Position numbers and translations under genes: made by a program. A DNA stretch of 64,000 nt, from the NCBI RefSeq assembly GCF_000025625.1, contig NC_013922.1, positions 2,914,001 through 2,978,000 of the forward strand, read 5' to 3'. Numbering within the stretch: position 1 is the first letter of the stretch; each line of letters begins with the position of its first letter. Positions 45,333 through 55,602 of the stretch are shown piece after piece. The notes beneath the pieces are model-generated. The model worked only from the letters and a program-made list of their open reading frames with translations, was not told the origin of the DNA and made no database searches. This DNA is from Natrialba magadii ATCC 43099. GTDB lineage: Archaea; Halobacteriota; Halobacteria; Halobacteriales; Natrialbaceae.

Positions 45333-46076
45333 ATGATCGCGAGCGAAACGATCCTCACGGGATCCGGACTGGCACTGCTCGTCGGTGCCGGCGGCTTCGC
45401 ACTCGGAGCGCGAGCGCTCCCCGCAGCGACGCGCCGATTCGGCTACGCGGTCGTTCTCGCCTGTGCGGGTATGGGGGTTGCGTACCTGCTCATGGCGGCC
45501 GGCGTCCTCACCGTTACGACCTCCGGCCGCGAAGAGTCTGCCGTCCGGTTCCTCGGCTACTCGGTCGCAATGACCGTCGGTAGCGTCGTCATCGGTGCAC
45601 TCGCCGGCGCGAGTACCCGGCGAACAGGTGCACTCGTCGGTGGGAACCTGCTGGCAGTCTGGGGAACGCTCGGAAGCTGGGTGTTCAGCGGAACCGGTGA
45701 AACCGTCGCCACAGTCCTCATCCTGGTGTCGTTTCTCGGCGTCGCCGTACTCCTCCTCGGACCGATGGCACGCACTGCCAGGACGGTCCACGCCGAACGC
45801 ACGCTCCTCTACGGCAAACTCAGAAACCTGGTGTTGCTCGCCTGGGCCAGCCTGATCGTCCTCGGCGCGATTTCGGCGCAGACGCTCGGCCTCACCGACG
45901 CCTTCGTCGGCCAGCTCGCCGCGACCTACGTCGACCTCGTCTTCCTGTTTGGCTTCGGCTTGCTCCTCTTTCGGAACGCCGACGCACTCGAGTACATCGG
46001 GACCGCTGGGGACGCCGACACTGGGTCGCAGTCAGGCGATGAGCCGTACGCGAGCACGGGTGTGAGCGGCAGGTGA
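45333..46076 (+). CDS. SRII-like opsin lacking the retinal-binding lysine, copy 1
   Basis: A 247-residue seven-helix protein collinear without gaps, by my reading, with Natronomonas sensory rhodopsin II. Helix B is AVVLACAGMGVAYLLMAAGV, helix F LRNLVLLAWASLIVLGAIS, helix G AATYVDLVFLFGFGLLLF. Using SRII numbering, Arg72, Trp171, Tyr199 and Asp201 are kept. Lys205 is Leu, the counterion Asp75 is Gly, Trp76 is Tyr, Tyr174 is Leu and Thr204 is Phe. The only lysine lies at residue 162 near the cytoplasmic end of helix F. Retinal cannot be bound covalently. Next gene is an HtrII-like transducer, 179 bp on. Confidence 0.85.
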   Translation: MIASETILTGSGLALLVGAGGFALGARALPAATRRFGYAVVLACAGMGVAYLLMAAGVLTVTTSGREESAVRFLGYSVAMTVGSVVIGALAGASTRRTGALVGGNLLAVWGTLGSWVFSGTGETVATVLILVSFLGVAVLLLGPMARTARTVHAERTLLYGKLRNLVLLAWASLIVLGAISAQTLGLTDAFVGQLAATYVDLVFLFGFGLLLFRNADALEYIGTAGDADTGSQSGDEPYASTGVSGR

Positions 46077-46255
46077 GCGGTGGTCCACGACGGGGGTCGA
46101 CGCACCGTCGTGCATGCCCGACCCACATGAAGCGAGCTATCGCGGCGGCAATAACGGTTATCAGGTGGCAGTGAGACGTCTATCCCAGGATGGGAGCCAG
46201 CAGTCCGTCCTGTCGGACGGGCTCGCTCCGAAGATGCATGAGGGAAGATCACGGG

Positions 46256-47899
46256 ATGCAATTCGATTCACTACTACCAGCACGGATTCGCCAACAGTAC
46301 AGTGTCAAGATCGCCGGTGCGCTCGGTTTCGTCGCCGTCGTGACGATCGGGTTCGGTGTCCTGTTCGGACTCCATATCGTCAGCGGTCCGACCGAGGGAC
46401 TGCAAGAACGTGCCATCGCCGGACTGACCGGACTGCTCGTGATTTTCTCGGTCAATCTCGGGCTCGTCGGGATCGTCCTCGGCGGCAACGTCGCGCTCTC
46501 GCTGCGCCAGCTTGGCGAGCGAACCGAGCGGATCGGGGACGGCGAGTTCGACGTCGACCTCGAAACCGATCGAGTCGACGAGATCGGCCAACTCTACAAC
46601 TCTGTCGACACGATGCGCGACTCGCTCGAGACGACACTCGAGGAGGTCGAGGCCGAGCAGGAACGTGCGGAGACGGCACAGGCGGAGGCCGAAGAGCAAG
46701 CCGCCCAGCTCGAAGAAGAACGCGAGCGGATTCAGGACCTCCAGCATCAGGCCGAACAGCAGAACCAGGAACTCGTCGCGGAAGCCCAGCGCTTCTCTGA
46801 CGTGATGGACGAGTGTGCGGCCGGTGACCTCAGCCAGCGTCTGGCTCCGCAGACGGACGACGAAGCGATGCAGGCGATTGCAGACTCGTTCAACCGGATG
46901 CTCGATCGGATTGGCGACGTCGTCGCCGAAGTGCAGGACGCGAGCGAGACAGTCGACGAGATGTCCGGCGACCTGCAGGGTTCGAGCCAGCAGATTCGTG
47001 CCGCCAGTCAGGAAGTCGCCGAGTCAGTCCAGGAGATCGCAGACGGCGCGACGAGCCAGACCGAGGACCTCGAACTCGCCGCCAGCGAGGTCAGCGACCT
47101 CTCTGCAGCCACGGAGGAAGTTGCAGCGACCACCTCCGAGATCGCGACCCAGTCCGAGGGGATGGCGACGCTGGCCGACGACGGCCAGGACGCCGCCGCC
47201 GACGCCGCACAGAACATCGACCAGCTCGTCGAGACGACTGAAACCGTCGTCGAAACGGTCGAGGAACTCAACGAGGAGGCCGCCCAGATCGGCGAAGTGA
47301 TCTCCCTCATCGACGACATCGCCGATCAGACGAACCTGCTCGCGCTCAACGCGAACGTCGAAGCCGCCCGCGCCGACGAGAGCGGTGACGGGTTCGCAGT
47401 CGTCGCGAACGAGATCAAATCGCTCGCCGAGGAAACCATGGACGCCGTCGACGAAATCGAAGGGACACTCGAGTCCATCCGTGATCGGACGGGGACGACC
47501 GCAGAGGAGATCACGATGGTCGACTCGAACATCAAGACGACGGCAACGCGCGTCGACGAGTTGCAGTCCCAACTCGAGACGATCAGTTCCGAGGCGGACC
47601 AGATGGACGCGAGTATTCAGGAGATTACGCAGACGGCGGACGACCAGGCCAGTTCGGCACAGGAGCTTGCGACGATCGTCGACGACGTGACGAGCGTGTC
47701 GGCGGAGACGAGCAGTCAGGCCGAGCAGGTCGCAGCAGCCTCCGAGGAGACGACGGCGACGACGGAGAGCGTCTCGACGATGGCGGGCGACCTGGACGAG
47801 CAGGCACAGCGGTTGAACGGGTTGATGGAGACGTTCACGATCGATCGCCGAGCCCAGTCTGCTGGGGCGGCCGCTGTCGCGCGAACGGGAGACGACTAA
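46256..47899 (+). CDS. HtrII-like methyl-accepting transducer
   Basis: A 547-residue chemoreceptor with two membrane helices ([40 protein letters not shown]) joined by a short loop and no outer ligand domain, the layout of Natronomonas HtrII. Asn67 in [14 protein letters not shown] matches HtrII Asn74, which bonds SRII Tyr199. HAMP repeats follow ([39 protein letters not shown]). The signalling tip is [20 protein letters not shown]. Start at 46256 aligns with the HtrII N-terminus; in-frame ATG at 46190 is possible. Flanked on both sides by lysine-less opsins. Confidence 0.88.
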
Positions 47900-47986: not shown

Positions 47987-48733
47987 ATGATCGAACACAC
48001 CACGACGTTTGTATTGACGAGCACGATTCTTGCAGTGATGACAGCGGTCTTCCTGCTGTGGACTCGGCGACTCGAGGACGGATCGCGGCGGCTCGGCTAC
48101 GCGGTCGTCGCCGCCTGTGGAGCGATGAGCGTCGCGTACCTGCTCATGGCTGCGGGCGTGCTGTCCGTGTCGACGACCGGGCGAGACGAGTCCATCGCGC
48201 GGTTCCTCGGCTACTCGGTCGCCTGGGGCGCAGTCTGTTACGTGATCGGGATGATCGCCGACGCAGAACGGCGGTATACACTCCTCCTGCTCGGCGGGAT
48301 CCTGCTAAGTCTCTGGGCGACCGTAGGAAGCTGGATACTCGGCGGGGCAGCGGGTACCGTCCTCACACTCGCGATCGTGGCCGGAGTCAGTGTGATGGGG
48401 GGCGTTCTATACGGCCCACTCGCACGCGAGGCACAGACCGTGAGCAGCGAGCGAACGCTGCTGTACGGGCGACTCAAGAATCTGACTATGCTCGTCTTCG
48501 TCGGCCTCCTCACAACCGGGATGCTCTCCGCACAGAATCTCGGGTTTACCGACGCCTTCATCGGACAGGCCCTCGCGACCTACCTTGATTTCGTCTGGCT
48601 TGCAGGCTTTGGCGGACTGGTACTCCGGAGTAGAGCTGCGCTGTCGGATGCTGGCAACGAGCGCGACGCCACGGAAGCGACGGGATCGAACGCTGAACGC
48701 GTTGCCGTCGGGACGGCACAGTCTGCCGACTGA
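47987..48733 (+). CDS. SRII-like opsin lacking the retinal-binding lysine, copy 2
   Basis: A 248-residue paralogue of the opsin-like protein at 45333, identical to it in many segments (VAYLLMAAGV, RFLGYSVA, ERTLLYG). Arg72, Tyr199 and Asp201 are retained in SRII numbering. Lys205 is Leu (TYLDFVWLAGFGGLVL), Asp75 is Gly, Trp171 is Phe, Tyr174 is Leu, Thr204 is Trp. The only lysine is at position 164. It begins 87 bp after the transducer stop on the same strand, so one opsin-transducer-opsin operon is likely. Confidence 0.85.
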   Translation: MIEHTTTFVLTSTILAVMTAVFLLWTRRLEDGSRRLGYAVVAACGAMSVAYLLMAAGVLSVSTTGRDESIARFLGYSVAWGAVCYVIGMIADAERRYTLLLLGGILLSLWATVGSWILGGAAGTVLTLAIVAGVSVMGGVLYGPLAREAQTVSSERTLLYGRLKNLTMLVFVGLLTTGMLSAQNLGFTDAFIGQALATYLDFVWLAGFGGLVLRSRAALSDAGNERDATEATGSNAERVAVGTAQSAD

Positions 48734-48943: not shown

Positions 48944-50524
48944 CTACGTCGATACCGTCTCGTCCGCGAGTCGGCCGACCTCGGACTCGATTTCGTCCAC
49001 CAGCTCGTCGACCTGCTCGTTCTGACCGACGATCGCCTCGATTTCGGTTGCGACCTCGTGTGACTGTTCCATCGCGGTGTCGGTCATGCTCGCGACCTCT
49101 TCGGTGCTTGCCGCCTGGTCGTCAGTCGCCATCGCGACCTCCTGAATACCAGTACTCGCCTCCTGGACGGATTCCTCGATGCGCTCTAAGTTGTCGACCG
49201 TCTCCTCAACCAGCCCGACGCCGCTTTCGATCTCCTCGTTTGCCGTCTCGAGACTATCAACCGTCTCCTCGGTATCCGCCTGGATCTGGTCGATCATCCG
49301 TTCGATGTTCTTGGCTTCGTCCTGCGATTCTTCGGCCAGGGACTTGACCTCGTTTGCGACGACCGCGAACCCGTCTCCTGCTTCGCCCGCCGTCGCCGCC
49401 TCGATCGACGCATTGAGCGCGAGCAGATTCGTCTGGTCGGCGATATCGTTGATCACATCCACGATTTCGTCGATCTTCTGGACGCTCTCGCGCAAGTCCT
49501 CGACGTCGTCGGTCACCTCGTCCGCCGCATCGTCGACGACCGCCATCTTGTCGATCGCTTCCTCGGCCGTCTCCGTCGTGTCGTTCGCGATTTCCTCCGC
49601 GCGCTCGCTGGTTGCGCTGACCTCCTCGGCGTTCGAGGCAATCTCCTCGACCGTCGCCGATAGTCCCGCTACTTCGCCCGAAATCTCGCCCATCGCGTCG
49701 GACTGTTGGGCCGCCAGGTCGCTGATCTCGTCGGAACGGTCGGAGACCTCTACCGAACGCTCGCGGAGCTCGGTGACTGACGACTGGACGTTCTTCGAGA
49801 CCTCGGTCCGGTGCTCGAGTTCGTCCTCGATATCGGCGTAGGCGTCGATGTAGGTGTCCATCGCGATCTGCTGGTCGACGTTCAGTAGTTTGAGCGCAGA
49901 GAGCGATCGCTCGACAACGTCGTCGACCATCTCCTGGGCGTCGGAGAGGGGCACGAGCGGCTCATCCTGGGATGGGGCTGTCGACGACTCCGCGGACAGC
50001 TCTGTCTCCGTTTCGGGTGCATCCTCGACAGCCGTACTGGCGAGGTCGTCCATCGCTTCGTCCGCAAGCGCCGTCAGAATCCCCTCGTAGTAGATCGAAT
50101 AGCCGCCGAGATAGAACTTCGGCCCCATGTCCAGCATATCGTGAATCTTGCCGATCCTGGCACGGCGCTCGGCGTACGCCGTCCCGTACTCACCACGACC
50201 GATATCCATGAGATACTCATACTGGGTCCGCTCGAGTGCATCGACGGATTTCGAGGACGAGTTGAGAATCGCAGTGGCGTCGGCGTTCGACTGGAGGTGG
50301 GAGTAGAACTCAGCGACGAGGTCATCCGCAATCTCCTCGAGAAGCGGCGCCATCGACTCGAGTCGATCGGCATCGGTCTCATCGAAGCCGACGAACTCCT
50401 TTCGCCACTCGAGTTCACGGCGATCGAGCCCGATCCGGTCGGTAAGGTCACGTCCGTCGACCTGCCGTCTGTTGTGCTCGTCGATTGTAGCCTGCGCCTG
50501 ACGCTCGTCCTGGTGGGTAGGCAT
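48944..50524 (-). CDS. hemAT: globin-coupled aerotaxis transducer HemAT
   Basis: A 526-residue soluble transducer. The N-terminal globin sensor (about 25-185) has the proximal heme ligand His128 in [20 protein letters not shown] and the B-helix region [16 protein letters not shown]. The C-terminal signalling domain is a long coiled coil with the tip [20 protein letters not shown]. There are no membrane helices. In Halobacterium HemAT mediates aerophobic responses to oxygen. It ends in the conserved motif region without a pentapeptide tether. Its signalling region is nearly identical in DNA to the paralogue at 51572. Confidence 0.9.
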
Positions 50525-50804: not shown

Positions 50805-51338
50805 TTAAATACGAACGGCAGTCGGGTCGATCCACAGCACGAACTCGTCGTTCTGGCGGACGATGCCGGCGATTCCGTCGCCATCGACGGACGTATCGAC
50901 TGTCGTCGCGTCGATCTGGCGTACCTGTCGGACTTCGTCGGCGAGCCAACCGATTCGGTCGGTCGAGTCACGCTTTCGTTTGAAGACGATGATCCGATTA
51001 CCGAGGTCGTCGTTCTCGTTCTCGCCGAAGATCGTTCGCAGGTTGACGATCTTCGTCGTCTCGCCTCGGAGGTCCATCACGCCCTCGACGTGGTCGGGCG
51101 TGTTCGGGATCGCGGTCAGTTCGTCGGTGTTGACAATCTCCGCGACGTAGCCGATGTCGACGCAGTAGCGGTTCTCGCCGAGGTCGAACTCGAGGACGTG
51201 GACGCTGAGGTCGTCGGGTGTGGCTGTGTTGGTGGGCGTGTTGGTGTCTGTATTGCTGTTCGTATTCGCGCTCGTCTCCGTATTCGTAGTCGTCTCGTCG
51301 GTCGCGTTCGATTGTGTGGATTGGTTCGTAGATACCAT
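50805..51338 (-). CDS. cheW: chemotaxis coupling protein CheW1
   Basis: A 177-residue CheW. After about 40 Asn/Thr-rich residues the SH3-like fold begins: VHVLEFDLGENRYCVDIGYV, then TPDHVEGVMDLRGETTKIVN, the hallmark region for receptor and CheA contact, and IDATTVDTSVDGDGIAGIVR. It links the transducers to CheA. It lies between HemAT and its paralogue on the same strand. Confidence 0.9.
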   Translation of the reverse strand: MVSTNQSTQSNATDETTTNTETSANTNSNTDTNTPTNTATPDDLSVHVLEFDLGENRYCVDIGYVAEIVNTDELTAIPNTPDHVEGVMDLRGETTKIVNLRTIFGENENDDLGNRIIVFKRKRDSTDRIGWLADEVRQVRQIDATTVDTSVDGDGIAGIVRQNDEFVLWIDPTAVRI

Positions 51339-51354: not shown

Positions 51355-51535
51355 GGTGGTGATCGGTGGTCGGTAGTCGGTAGTCGTGGTCGGTGGTCAG
51401 TGGTCGGTGATCGGTGGTCAGTGGTCGGTGATCGGTGGTCAGTGGTCGGTGGTCGGTAGTCGTGGTCGGTGGTCGGTAGTCGTGGTCGGTGGTCGGTAGT
51501 CGTGGTCGGTAATCGGCGGTCAGTAGTCGATGGCC
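51355..51535. repeat. GGTCGGT/AGTCGTGGTCGGTG simple repeat
   Basis: About 180 bp of imperfect GGTCGGT, GGTCAGT and AGTCGTGGTCGGTGGTCGGT units between cheW1 and the next transducer. Confidence 0.9.
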
Positions 51536-51571: not shown

Positions 51572-53233
51572 CTACTCGTCCGCAGAGAGACTGCGAACAT
51601 CGGCTTCAACCTCGTCGACCAGCTCGTCGACGGTCTCGGCGTGGCGTTCGATCGCCTCGAGTCCGTTCGTGACCTGCTGGGACGTCTCCATCGCAGTGTC
51701 GGTCATGCTCGCGACCTCTTCGGTGCTTGCCGCCTGGTCGTCGGTCGCCGTCGCGACCTCCTGAATGCCCGTGCTTGCCTCCTGGACGGATTCCTCGATA
51801 CGCTCTAAGTTGTCGACCGTCTCCTCGACCAGATCGACACCAGTCGAGACGCGCTCGTTCGCCGTCTCGAGGCTGTCGACCGTCTCCTCGGTATCCGCCT
51901 GAATCTGGTCGATCATCCGTTCGATGTTCTTGGCTTCGTCCTGCGATTCTTCGGCCAGGGACTTGACCTCGTTCGCGACGACTGCGAACCCGTCTCCCGC
52001 TTCGCCCGCCGTCGCCGCTTCGATCGAGGCGTTGAGCGCGAGCAGATTCGTCTGGTCGGCGATATCGTTGATCACGTCCACGATCTCGTCGATCTTCTGG
52101 ACGCTCTCGCGGAGGTTTTCGACGTCGTCAGTCACCTCGACGGCTGCCTCCTCGACGCCTTCGATCTGATCGATCGCTTCCTCGGCCGTCTCCGTCGTGT
52201 CGGTCGCGATTTCCTCGGCGCGCTCGCTGGTGGCACTGACCTCCTCGGCGTTCGAGGCAATCTCCTCAACCGTCGCCGACAGCCCCGAGACCTCACTCGC
52301 AATTTCGTTCATCGAGTTCGACTGCTCGGCCGCGAGATCCGTCATCTCCGCGGTCCGATCGGTCACGTCGGCAGTCGAATCCGAAACCTCACGCAGCGAC
52401 TCCTGAATCCGATCACCGACGGCCTCGCGCTGGCGCTTCGTCTCTACCTGATTCGTGAGTTGCGCTTCGTACTCGGCGATGCGCTCTTCATCTGCTGCCT
52501 GCTGGCTGCGCTGTGCACTGGCGTAGGTCTGCATCGCGAGTTGCTGGTCGACCAGACTGTGGCGCAGCAGCGACAGCGTCCGGGAAACGACGGTGTCGAC
52601 TGCGTCGTCGACGGCTTCTCCAATGGCACCGGACTCGCCAGCAGTCTCAGCGTCAGGCGTCCCAGCATCACCCCCTCCTCCTCCTCCTCCTTCTCCCTCT
52701 CTCTTCCCCTCAAACCCCGCTTTGACGTCCGCCGCAATCGCCTCGAGTGCCTCCTCGTAGTACGCGCCGAACGACCCGATATAGGCGTCAGGCCCTGCTG
52801 CAAGGACCGCCCCAACGGCCGGCGACTCGAGTCGATCCGAGAAAACCGCCACGTCGGTCCGGCCCGCCGCTGCCGCGTCGACGAGGCCGGCCTGGTCCGA
52901 TTCGAGTTGGGCTTTGCTCGCGCCCGACTGCGTCTCGAGTGCACTCGAGACAGCCGGCTTGCGGCTGGCGGCGTCGGCGGACGCTGCGGCGATGTCCGCA
53001 CGGGCGTCTGCGAGGGCGTCCGAGAGCGACTCGAGTCGGGCCTCGTCGTCGGCGTCCAGTGAGACGAAGGTGTTCGCGCGCTCGACGCTGGCGGGGTCGA
53101 TGCCAGTGTTCATGATGGCGTCGACGTCCGCACTCGAGACCGAGGCCGAGGCCGAGCTCAAAGCCGTCCCACCGGAATCAGTGGAATCGGCTGCGGCTTC
53201 GAGACGGGACGCTCCGCCGTCTGTTCTGGGCAT
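51572..53233 (-). CDS. HemAT paralogue with histidine-free globin domain
   Basis: A 553-residue soluble transducer. Residues 48-170 align with the HemAT globin ([39 protein letters not shown]) but the proximal heme histidine is Gly141 and there is no histidine before residue 225. The domain is Ala-rich. A Gly run ([13 protein letters not shown]) links it to the helical part. The signalling tip [20 protein letters not shown] and surroundings equal those of HemAT. A non-heme globin sensor, as in Bacillus RsbR, is the natural reading. Ligand unknown. Confidence 0.82.
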
Positions 53234-53425
53234 AGTCGTGACAGTGAGAGTCAGCTAAATAAGTGTTTTTGCAGATCCCATCCATCGGGGAGTTTAGCGG
53301 CCACAACAGTCATATACGGTGTTCTGGCAAAGCGTGATTCCCGGAGTGGCAGCGACTGGATCAGCGAAAGTGGATGAAAGTGAACGTAAAACGGGAACTG
53401 CGCTACTCGTCGCGTCGGTCCAGTG

Positions 53426-54673
53426 TCAGTCGATGGTCGCGATGAGTTCGTCGATGTCCAGCCAGGCGACGAGCGTCGTTCGATCCTCGTCGTCCTGCTT
53501 CTTGATGATGCCACGGACGCACTCGTGCTGGTGGTCGCCCGCGGCGTCCATCACGCTGCCCGTCTCATCGATCTGGCTGTCGTGATAGGTGACCGCCTGC
53601 GAGACGTCGGTCACGCGGACGCCGAGCTTTTGCTTGTCGTCGTCGCGTTCTAAGACGACGATGTACTGGTCGTCGGAGAGTTCGTTGTGCTCGACGTCGA
53701 GCATCGTCGTCGGGTCGAGAACACCCGTGATCTCGCCGCGGAGGTCCGTCACGCCGTCGATGGCGGTCGGACCGCGCGGGAACCGCGTGATGTCTTTCAT
53801 CTCGACGATAGCGCTGATCCGATCGATCTCGATGGCGTAGCGGTTCTCGTTCAGGTAGAACTCGAGCATCTGGATTGTCGACTCGCTGTCGTGTGTCGAG
53901 TGGATCAGCGTGTTCCCCTGATCGAACATGGCGTCCTTACGGGCGCTGGTCGCGTCGCCGTACCCCTCGGCATCCGCCATCGTCGCAGAGCCGTCGACGG
54001 TTGGCTCCGCGCTGGTCCCCGTGAGTTCGGCGACGGTGGACTGGCTGGCGATTGCACCACCGAGTGCAGCGAGCGGGCCGTCCGCGCGGGATTCGGATTC
54101 GCCGTCGTCGAACGAGAGCGTAACATCAGTGTCGCCCGTCTCCATCGACGCTTCGGTATCTGTGGTCCCGGCAGCCACCCCTGCAGAGTCAACAGCCGCA
54201 GCATCGCCGGCGGCGTCAGCGCCAGCGGCGTCAGAATCGCCTGCTGTATCCGCAGCTTCTATCGCATCTGCCTCCGAATCGGCCGCGTCCGACCCCTGTT
54301 CGGGTTCGGAACTGGCGTCTGCTGTCTGTTGTCCGTCGCCGCAATTATCGTCACTGTCACCCGTGGCCCTGTCACTGCTCGCTGCTGGTTCGTCGCGTTT
54401 GCCCGCCGATTCGGTACCACTCTCTGTGCTGTCGTCGGCTGCGGACGGGGATTCTGCCGCTGACTCGTCTGCTTCGTCTTGTTCCGCGGTCTCTGCGGTC
54501 TCTGCGGCCTCCGCGGTCTCTGCAGCCTCTGCGGTCTCTGCGGCCTCCGCGGTCTCTGCAGCCTCTGCAGCCTCTGCGGTCTCTGCGGCCTCCGCAGTCT
54601 CTGCTGTCTCACGTGCCCCCCCAGCTGCACGGTTGCGCATCTCCCGAAGTCGACGTGCTCTGTCGTCAGTCAT
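53426..54673 (-). CDS. cheW: CheW2 with long low-complexity N-terminus
   Basis: A 415-residue protein. Residues about 20-65 are Ala-Glu-Thr repeats (AETAEAAETAEAAEAAETAE), followed by an acidic Ser/Ala-rich stretch to about 250. The C-terminal 160 residues are a CheW domain: IQMLEFYLNENRYAIEIDRI, PTAIDGVTDLRGEITGVLDP, VTDVSQAVTYHDSQID. The start ATG overlaps the parA stop in ATGA, so translation is coupled to the ParA ATPase. It likely joins receptor arrays through its CheW part while the extension contacts another partner. Confidence 0.85.
   Translation of the reverse strand: MTDDRARRLREMRNRAAGGARETAETAEAAETAEAAEAAETAEAAETAEAAETAEAAETAETAEQDEADESAAESPSAADDSTESGTESAGKRDEPAASSDRATGDSDDNCGDGQQTADASSEPEQGSDAADSEADAIEAADTAGDSDAAGADAAGDAAAVDSAGVAAGTTDTEASMETGDTDVTLSFDDGESESRADGPLAALGGAIASQSTVAELTGTSAEPTVDGSATMADAEGYGDATSARKDAMFDQGNTLIHSTHDSESTIQMLEFYLNENRYAIEIDRISAIVEMKDITRFPRGPTAIDGVTDLRGEITGVLDPTTMLDVEHNELSDDQYIVVLERDDDKQKLGVRVTDVSQAVTYHDSQIDETGSVMDAAGDHQHECVRGIIKKQDDEDRTTLVAWLDIDELIATID
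54481..54610. repeat. Ala-Glu-Thr coding repeat (TCTGCGGCC/TCCGCGGTC units)
   Basis: Tandem 6- and 9-bp units encode the AETAEA repeats of the CheW2 N-terminus; unit number changes keep the frame. Confidence 0.8.
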
Positions 54674-55464
54674 GCTGGTATCTCCTGTCGTAGCAACTGC
54701 TCGTCTACCTGCTCGGCCATCTCCATGAAGACCGCGCTCATATCCGTCTCTTCTTCCGCCGCAAACACCGACTTCCCCGACGCGAACGCCCGCTGCAACG
54801 CCACACGCTTTCGTATCCGATACAGCGGCACATCCGGCAACGCCTCGTCGAACCACTCGAGCATCTCTGTCGCCGCTCGCGTGTTCTCGATCCGATTCGC
54901 CACTAGCGCCAGCGGCTCGATCGTCACGTCGTGATCCAGCTCCAGTGCACCGACGTAATCGAAGAGCAACTCGAGTGACCGCTTGCTCGTCGGTTCGGCG
55001 AGTGCGGGGATCACGAGATTCTCCGTCGCGTACAGCGCGTTGTCGGTCAGGAGGCCGAGGTGGGGTGAGCAGTCGACGACGGTGACGTCGTACTCGCCCG
55101 CCTCCTCGAGTCGGTCGAGGAGTGCGTCGAGTCGCGTCTCGCCGTCGGGTTCCTGGACGAGCGTGGACTCGGCGGCGTTCATGTCGACGTTGCTCGCGAC
55201 GACGTCCATCTCTGGGTGAGCAGAGACGAGGTCATCGGGGTCGACAGCCGCCGGGTCGACGAGCGCGTCGAGTAGCGACGGCGGTTCGGCGTCGTAGGCC
55301 TCGAGCAGGCCGAGTCCTTCGGTCGCGTTCCCTTGCGGATCGAGGTCGACGAAGAGGACGTTACGTCCGAGTTCGTTCAGCGCACCCGCGAGGTTGATCG
55401 CGACGGTCGTCTTGCCGACGCCTCCTTTCTGATTTGTCACACACAGCCGAGCAGCTCCCGCCAT
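54670..55464 (-). CDS. parA: ParA/MinD-type ATPase coupled to CheW2
   Basis: A 264-residue deviant Walker ATPase: CVTNQKGGVGKTTVAINLAG with signature Lys13 and Lys18, switch FVDLDPQGNATEGLGLL and Walker B VTVVDCSPHLGLLTDN. ATG at 55464 is chosen over an upstream in-frame codon. No parB or centromere-like array is visible and the next gene is a CheW, overlapping by four bases. By analogy with the bacterial ParC-ParP system it may position chemosensory arrays. Confidence 0.85.
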   Translation of the reverse strand: MAGAARLCVTNQKGGVGKTTVAINLAGALNELGRNVLFVDLDPQGNATEGLGLLEAYDAEPPSLLDALVDPAAVDPDDLVSAHPEMDVVASNVDMNAAESTLVQEPDGETRLDALLDRLEEAGEYDVTVVDCSPHLGLLTDNALYATENLVIPALAEPTSKRSLELLFDYVGALELDHDVTIEPLALVANRIENTRAATEMLEWFDEALPDVPLYRIRKRVALQRAFASGKSVFAAEEETDMSAVFMEMAEQVDEQLLRQEIPA

Positions 55465-55602
55465 TCGAGTGAGTCGTTTCAACTCTGCCTACATAACTCA
55501 CACGGCCAGCACGGGTGAGAACGTGGCAGTCGCCGGATCGAGCGGCGCTTGCCGGTCGGTCCGGCCGAACGCTTTATGCGGGGATCATTACAAACCAGTG
55601 CC
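55465..55602 (+). promoter_or_regulatory. promoter of the cheB-cheA operon
   Basis: GCTTTATGCG at 55571-55580 lies about 28 nt before the ATG at 55603, predicting a leaderless transcript that starts at the 81-codon ORF ahead of cheB. Confidence 0.45.

Follow-up and report, generated by a model that had tools for sequence, protein, structure and literature searches.

Non-heme globins are, to our knowledge, known so far only in stress and sporulation signaling. The proteins pXO1-118 and pXO2-61 were reportedly described by Stranzl et al. in 2011 as heme-free globin-fold sensor domains, and they bind fatty acid. RsbR has a globin fold in which the F8 His is replaced by Ala74 and heme is lost, according to the accessible parts of two papers (PMC4476040; PMC6614362). 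For HemAT-Bs, the available portion of one review assigns heme-pocket roles to His123 (proximal), Tyr70 (distal), and Thr95 (PMC13401364). The che/fla locus of Natrialba magadii has been reported to hold three MCPs, with one hemAT-type transducer, and two N. magadii opsin genes were found to lack the retinal Lys; the accessible text of that paper does not mention a lost His (PMC3403918). As its available part describes, a 2006 survey of globins made the F8 His a condition of its alignments and would therefore have excluded His-less receptors (PMC1457004). The initial annotation of the locus knew of no non-heme globin chemotaxis transducer in haloarchaea, and our limited search of the open-licence PubMed Central literature agrees, as it found no description of a heme-less globin chemoreceptor in this group. 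Here, we compare one N. magadii receptor, P0001, with these systems.

P0001 is a soluble globin-type MCP in the che cluster

The window, the whole 64,000-nucleotide stretch of N. magadii ATCC 43099 DNA that we analyzed, carries the P0001 gene at exactly the coordinates first annotated (51572-53233), and the coding strand is the minus strand. See Table 1 for all features. P0001 has the soluble MCP signaling domain that serves as a criterion for HemAT (PF00015, E = 4e-46, without a hydrophobic segment), and no transmembrane segment is evident, as the highest 19-residue Kyte-Doolittle mean is 1.13. His occurs only at residues 225 and 531 of the 553-residue sequence, as first noted for the region before residue 225, and there are no Cys or Trp residues. 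The globin core is rich in Ala, which makes up 26% of residues 49–180.

Table 1. Positions of P0001, its parts, and the neighboring chemotaxis genes in the window
Feature	Position	Strand	Details
P0002, HemAT-type globin chemoreceptor	48944..50524	minus	Heme-pocket residues His128 and Tyr74 present
CheW between the two globin receptors	50805..51338	minus	PF01584, 92 bits
P0001 gene	51572..53233	minus	553-aa cytoplasmic methyl-accepting chemotaxis protein, His-less globin-sensor domain, group A
P0001 MCP signaling domain, ~residues 300-512	51698..52336	minus	PF00015, 157 bits; near-identical to that of the neighboring HemAT
P0001 globin-sensor domain, residues 42-241, with Gly-rich linker before helix H	52511..53110	minus	Pfam Protoglobin, AF2 model, 1or4 superposition
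P0001 Gly141 codon	52811..52813	minus	Proximal heme-ligand position; equals His128 in the neighboring HemAT and His123 in HemAT-Bs
P0001 probable promoter and start	53231..53276	minus	AAAAACACTTATTTA ~23-37 nt before the ATG
Long CheW-domain protein, upstream of P0001	53426..54856	minus	PF01584, 79 bits, residues 329-473

The true start of the long CheW protein is probably further in; its N-terminal part is rich in Ala/Glu/Thr repeats (AETAEAAETAE), and a ParA-like ATPase (54670-55482) is its neighbor. Between P0001 and the shorter CheW gene, the intergenic stretch 51370-51530 contains a short tandem repeat run (ACCGACCAC...). Two bacteriorhodopsin-like proteins (PF01036), at 45333-46076 (+) and 47987-48733 (+), flank a HAMP-MCP at 46190-47899. 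By eye, the TM7 motif of both opsins is without the retinal Lys. This puts a pair of Lys-less opsins in the same che cluster as a His-less globin. A 648-aa frame for a third globin-coupled transducer is found in the same genome (G000:C1:1571145-1572806, L082), with a Protoglobin score of 97.9 bits.

The N-terminal domain is predicted to keep the globin fold

The N-terminal domain of P0001 had been annotated as alignable with the globin of the adjacent HemAT. Pfam Protoglobin (PF11563) matches residues 49–241 at 20.1 bits (E = 7e-4), which is under the 25-bit curated cut-off; several relatives of the P0001 type (group A, see below) pass that cut-off at 27–38 bits, and the neighboring HemAT, P0002, scores 99.8 bits. 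Searching the PDB with the P0001 sequence alone retrieved no relevant entry, and RsbR was not matched by sequence. A profile built from 16 relatives and searched against PDB sequences matched HemAT of B. subtilis (1or4, E = 5e-4) and the globin of AfGcHK (5ohe, E = 2e-4). We then modeled residues 33–245 with AF2 from a 16-row alignment (mean pLDDT 87.6, pTM 0.82). Using VIA-align, the model superposes on 1or4 with a Z score of 14.2 and 2.3 Å over 147 residues, and its Z scores to GCS globins are 14.2–14.6. Foldseek with the same model returned no match under E 0.001, the best being 1or6 at E 0.06 and probability 1.00. The RsbR structure 2bnl appears with a Z score of 9.7 among the best 50 matches listed for the HemAT model and is not among the matches listed for the P0001 model.

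The profile matches and the 1or4 superposition show that the annotated alignment is not due to chance. A predicted non-globin fold would have spoken against the initial annotation, but the structure prediction gave a globin sensor domain. Together, these results identify the N-terminal domain of P0001 as a globin sensor domain that lacks the proximal His. A control model of HemAT reached a confidence of 77.0 versus 87.6 for P0001, a weak comparison of one run each on the same 16 rows reordered; the gap would fit a packed heme-free core in P0001, but we do not count it as evidence.

Proximal and distal heme-pocket residues are both lost in group A

We aligned 136 globin-MCP domain rows from fetched loci, which are a subset of all matches. 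The proximal column holds His in 108 rows, which include one truncated P0002 copy, and Asp (9), Gly (6), Ala (5), Tyr (4), Glu (2), or Pro (2) in the other 28. His123 of HemAT lies opposite the Gly141 column, so the substitution of the proximal His by Gly141 is borne out. The His-less rows fall into group A (15 rows, the P0001 type), group B (6), group C (3), and group D (4, with Tyr), and the proximal His is present in none of the 24 receptors of groups A, B, and C. All 108 His-type rows have Phe(B9), Tyr(B10), Leu(E7), and His(F8). Tyr(B10) is missing from all 15 group A rows, where Ala, Val, Thr, or Ile replaces it; it is kept in three of six group B and two of three group C rows, and is Ala in 4/4 group D rows. 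The position equivalent to Thr95 is variable even in His-type rows (Thr in 53/108), and we did not use it as evidence. Conservation is distributed differently along the domain as well. Mean column identity in group A is highest in helices G (0.77) and H (0.73) versus F (0.57) and E (0.55), and the most conserved helix of the His-bearing rows is F (0.77).

If heme had been lost, its ligand and the distal residue would be expected to disappear together, and in group A both are gone. We also looked for an alternative conserved heme ligand, which would have spoken against the initial annotation, and no column of His, Cys, or Met is conserved in at least 60% of the 24 group A–C rows. Together with the predicted globin fold, this supports the annotated view that heme binding of the usual kind is impossible, and we infer that the globin head of P0001 no longer binds heme. 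Heme or another tetrapyrrole might still be held by an unusual ligand (Tyr, Lys, or Met) or without any protein ligand, since ligand arrangements in globins can change, as the accessible part of one paper describes for HGbRL (PMC4476040). Tyr151 and Tyr159 would be candidates, as they are conserved in 22/24 and 24/24 group A–C rows. However, both are equally conserved in HemAT-type rows (105/108 and 107/108), which points to another role, and the distal Tyr is also lost in group A. With no conserved His, Cys, or Met column either, we consider retained tetrapyrrole binding very unlikely.

The His-less lineage is old and has two fixed genomic locations

Within the window's family, 90 of 125 genomes match the N-terminal 240 residues of P0001 at E 0.001, and 243/391 genomes across the class match profile A1 at 1e-5. 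All 28 His-less rows come from the window's family, despite 66 fetched loci from other families. Group A is present in 15 genomes of five genera, namely 7/7 Natrialba genomes and eight genomes of four other genera, which rules out a recent mutation or a sequencing error. We built trees with the His column removed, a quick one from 136 rows and a careful one from 75 rows, and groups A, B, and C form one clade in both (SH-aLRT 100 and 100/100, respectively). Group D lies apart from them, which gives two changes; the AU test does not reject a single clade for all 28 rows that lack His (p = 0.384). The proximal His was therefore lost at least once, and probably two times. Judged from these trees, the loss in the P0001 lineage is old and shared rather than a local mutation, and the clade of groups A, B, and C is older than several genera.

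Group D is a second kind of His-less globin-MCP (L076:775-2256, L077:2953-4428, L078:3499-5253, and L079:3640-5133), in which the proximal His is changed to Tyr, Tyr(B10) to Ala, and six residues are deleted. Its Tyr could still ligate heme. In 4/4 genomes of one genus, it directly adjoins an intact HemAT.

In all 14 fetched group A loci, as in the window, cheA and cheB lie within the same 20 kb, and CheW genes are often on both sides of the receptor. The group B and C loci have mutS directly downstream in 9/9 cases and thiDN upstream in 8/9, the ninth locus being too short. These receptors keep this place between thiDN and mutS, away from the che genes (L058-L063, L065, L066, and L069).

The P0001 globin domain is constrained and its probable promoter conserved

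A 28-base block with a TATA-like element, ending 22 bases before the P0001 ATG, is identical in 7/7 Natrialba genomes, and the sequence further upstream differs among them. The transcript looks leaderless. In nine Natrialba pairs, the group A globin domain has a dN/dS of 0.22–0.44 and is therefore constrained. The corresponding HemAT values are 0.05–0.17 in six wider pairs and 0.24–0.43 in three very close pairs, and the group A globin evolves faster than that of HemAT in 6/9 pairs. Signaling-domain dN/dS values that involve N. asiatica are inflated by apparent draft errors.

The Ala-rich core and the faster evolution could also mean that P0001 functions weakly. Taken further, its globin domain could have had no sensory role since heme was lost, leaving P0001 as a constitutive component of the array or a gene heading for loss. 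A group A globin dN/dS of ~0.3 against 0.05–0.17 for HemAT in the wider pairs is in line with this, as are interrupted frames in two relatives, G046 (471 aa) and G043 (429 aa, with an unknown residue). However, both of these genomes are draft assemblies, dN/dS is well below 1, the promoter block is unchanged in all seven Natrialba genomes, the signaling domain is intact, the fold is confidently predicted, and the clade predates several genera. A receptor with a dead or decaying input thus seems quite unlikely to us.

P0001 and the adjacent HemAT have near-identical signaling halves

P0001 and the neighboring HemAT are 88.3% identical in DNA over the signaling halves (217 codons) and 44.3% over the globin domains. 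The group A gene of G039 and its HemAT are 96.6% identical in the signaling part and 46.8% in the globin part, and this group A gene is only 77–79% identical to those of Natrialba. Over six adjacent group A/HemAT pairs, signaling DNA is 87–97% identical, versus 57–68% for three non-adjacent pairs; two further adjacent pairs with draft frames give 86.7% (SSL1) and 76.4% (N. asiatica). The signaling-domain tree conflicts with the globin tree, as it joins the group A and HemAT rows of G039 (100/100) and places those of Natrialba in one cluster (90/99). In the window, this suggests gene conversion between the signaling halves of P0001 and HemAT, and the overall pattern fits gene conversion or transfer of the signaling half between neighbors, in either direction. 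Within Natrialba, several group A and HemAT rows of related species still cluster by kind in the signaling tree, so conversion there would not be very recent. These globin receptors show output domains homogenized while input domains diverge.

The same data bear on whether P0001 has an input of its own. P0001 might pair with HemAT in mixed dimers, or join it in mixed trimers of dimers, and so set the gain or baseline of the O2 signal, by analogy with soluble guanylate cyclase, whose alpha subunit is heme-free. HemAT is adjacent to group A in 8/15 genomes (7 Natrialba and G039) and to group D in every case, adjacent pairs have the more similar signaling halves, and the dimer helices G and H are conserved, all of which would suit such a partnership. 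Gene conversion can, however, be explained by adjacency alone, and the group D/HemAT pairs are not homogenized (65–67% identity in the signaling part). In five genomes (G010, G012, G038, G095, and G096), the 20-kb group A locus contains no HemAT, and two more loci reach a contig end. One of the five, G095, also has a His-bearing globin-MCP of another type. Furthermore, the group B receptor is the sole Protoglobin over the cut-off in G024–G026, so group B works without HemAT, and an obligate partnership is not general. Overall, we regard a P0001 that acts only through HemAT as rather unlikely.

A candidate sensor for a cue other than heme-bound O2

We lean, by a little, toward P0001 being a functional and independent non-heme globin chemoreceptor whose cue is something other than heme-bound O2. 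The computed features behind this reading are the fold, the loss of His and distal Tyr, a lineage that is both old and conserved, the intact MCP domain, the promoter block, and the fixed place in the che cluster. In such a receptor, the globin dimer, formed by helices G and H as its best-kept part, would change shape on the cue. The cue would most likely be a small molecule from the cytoplasm that occupies the vacated pocket, or else some physical or chemical condition of the cell, in line with proposals for non-heme globin sensors such as RsbR. Helix H would transmit this shape change to the coiled-coil MCP domain, and that domain would in turn drive CheA via the CheW proteins encoded alongside. 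Because the signaling half is near-identical to that of HemAT, the signals of P0001 and of O2 would probably be summed within a single receptor array.

A broader proposal, for which we see the case as evenly balanced, is that Natrialbaceae-type haloarchaea possess an ancient line of globin chemoreceptors that do without heme. These would sense something other than heme-bound O2 from two fixed homes, the che cluster for group A and a site upstream of mutS for groups B and C, and gene conversion would keep the Natrialba output near-identical to that of HemAT so that two inputs drive one array. If true, P0001 is a non-heme globin serving as a chemotaxis input. The receptors can be arranged in a natural series, from His-bearing forms through His-less ones that keep Tyr to those that have lost both, with which to ask what role a globin sensor can have without heme, and the adjacent HemAT is a built-in control for P0001.

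Comparison with known systems

Like HemAT-Bs and HemAT-Hs, P0001 is cytoplasmic and joins a globin-sensor domain to an MCP domain, and it shares its signaling half almost entirely with the HemAT next door. Unlike HemAT, it lacks both the proximal His (Gly141) and the distal Tyr(B10), which is Tyr70 of HemAT-Bs in the accessible part of PMC13401364. The Lys-less opsins of N. magadii, described in the available portion of PMC3403918, belong to the same che cluster and are likewise a sensor fold minus its cofactor residue, but they are membrane proteins of unrelated fold. As in RsbR, the globin fold is without the F8 His, heme is expected to be absent, and heme-keeping relatives exist; the output of RsbR is a STAS domain in the stressosome, whereas that of P0001 is an MCP domain in an archaeal che system. 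Set beside P0001 by description, pXO1-118 and pXO2-61 are similar in being heme-free globin-fold sensor domains, but they stand alone, act on sporulation, and have no MCP domain. Non-heme globin sensors and HemAT are thus each already known, and P0001 pairs a non-heme globin with an MCP output.
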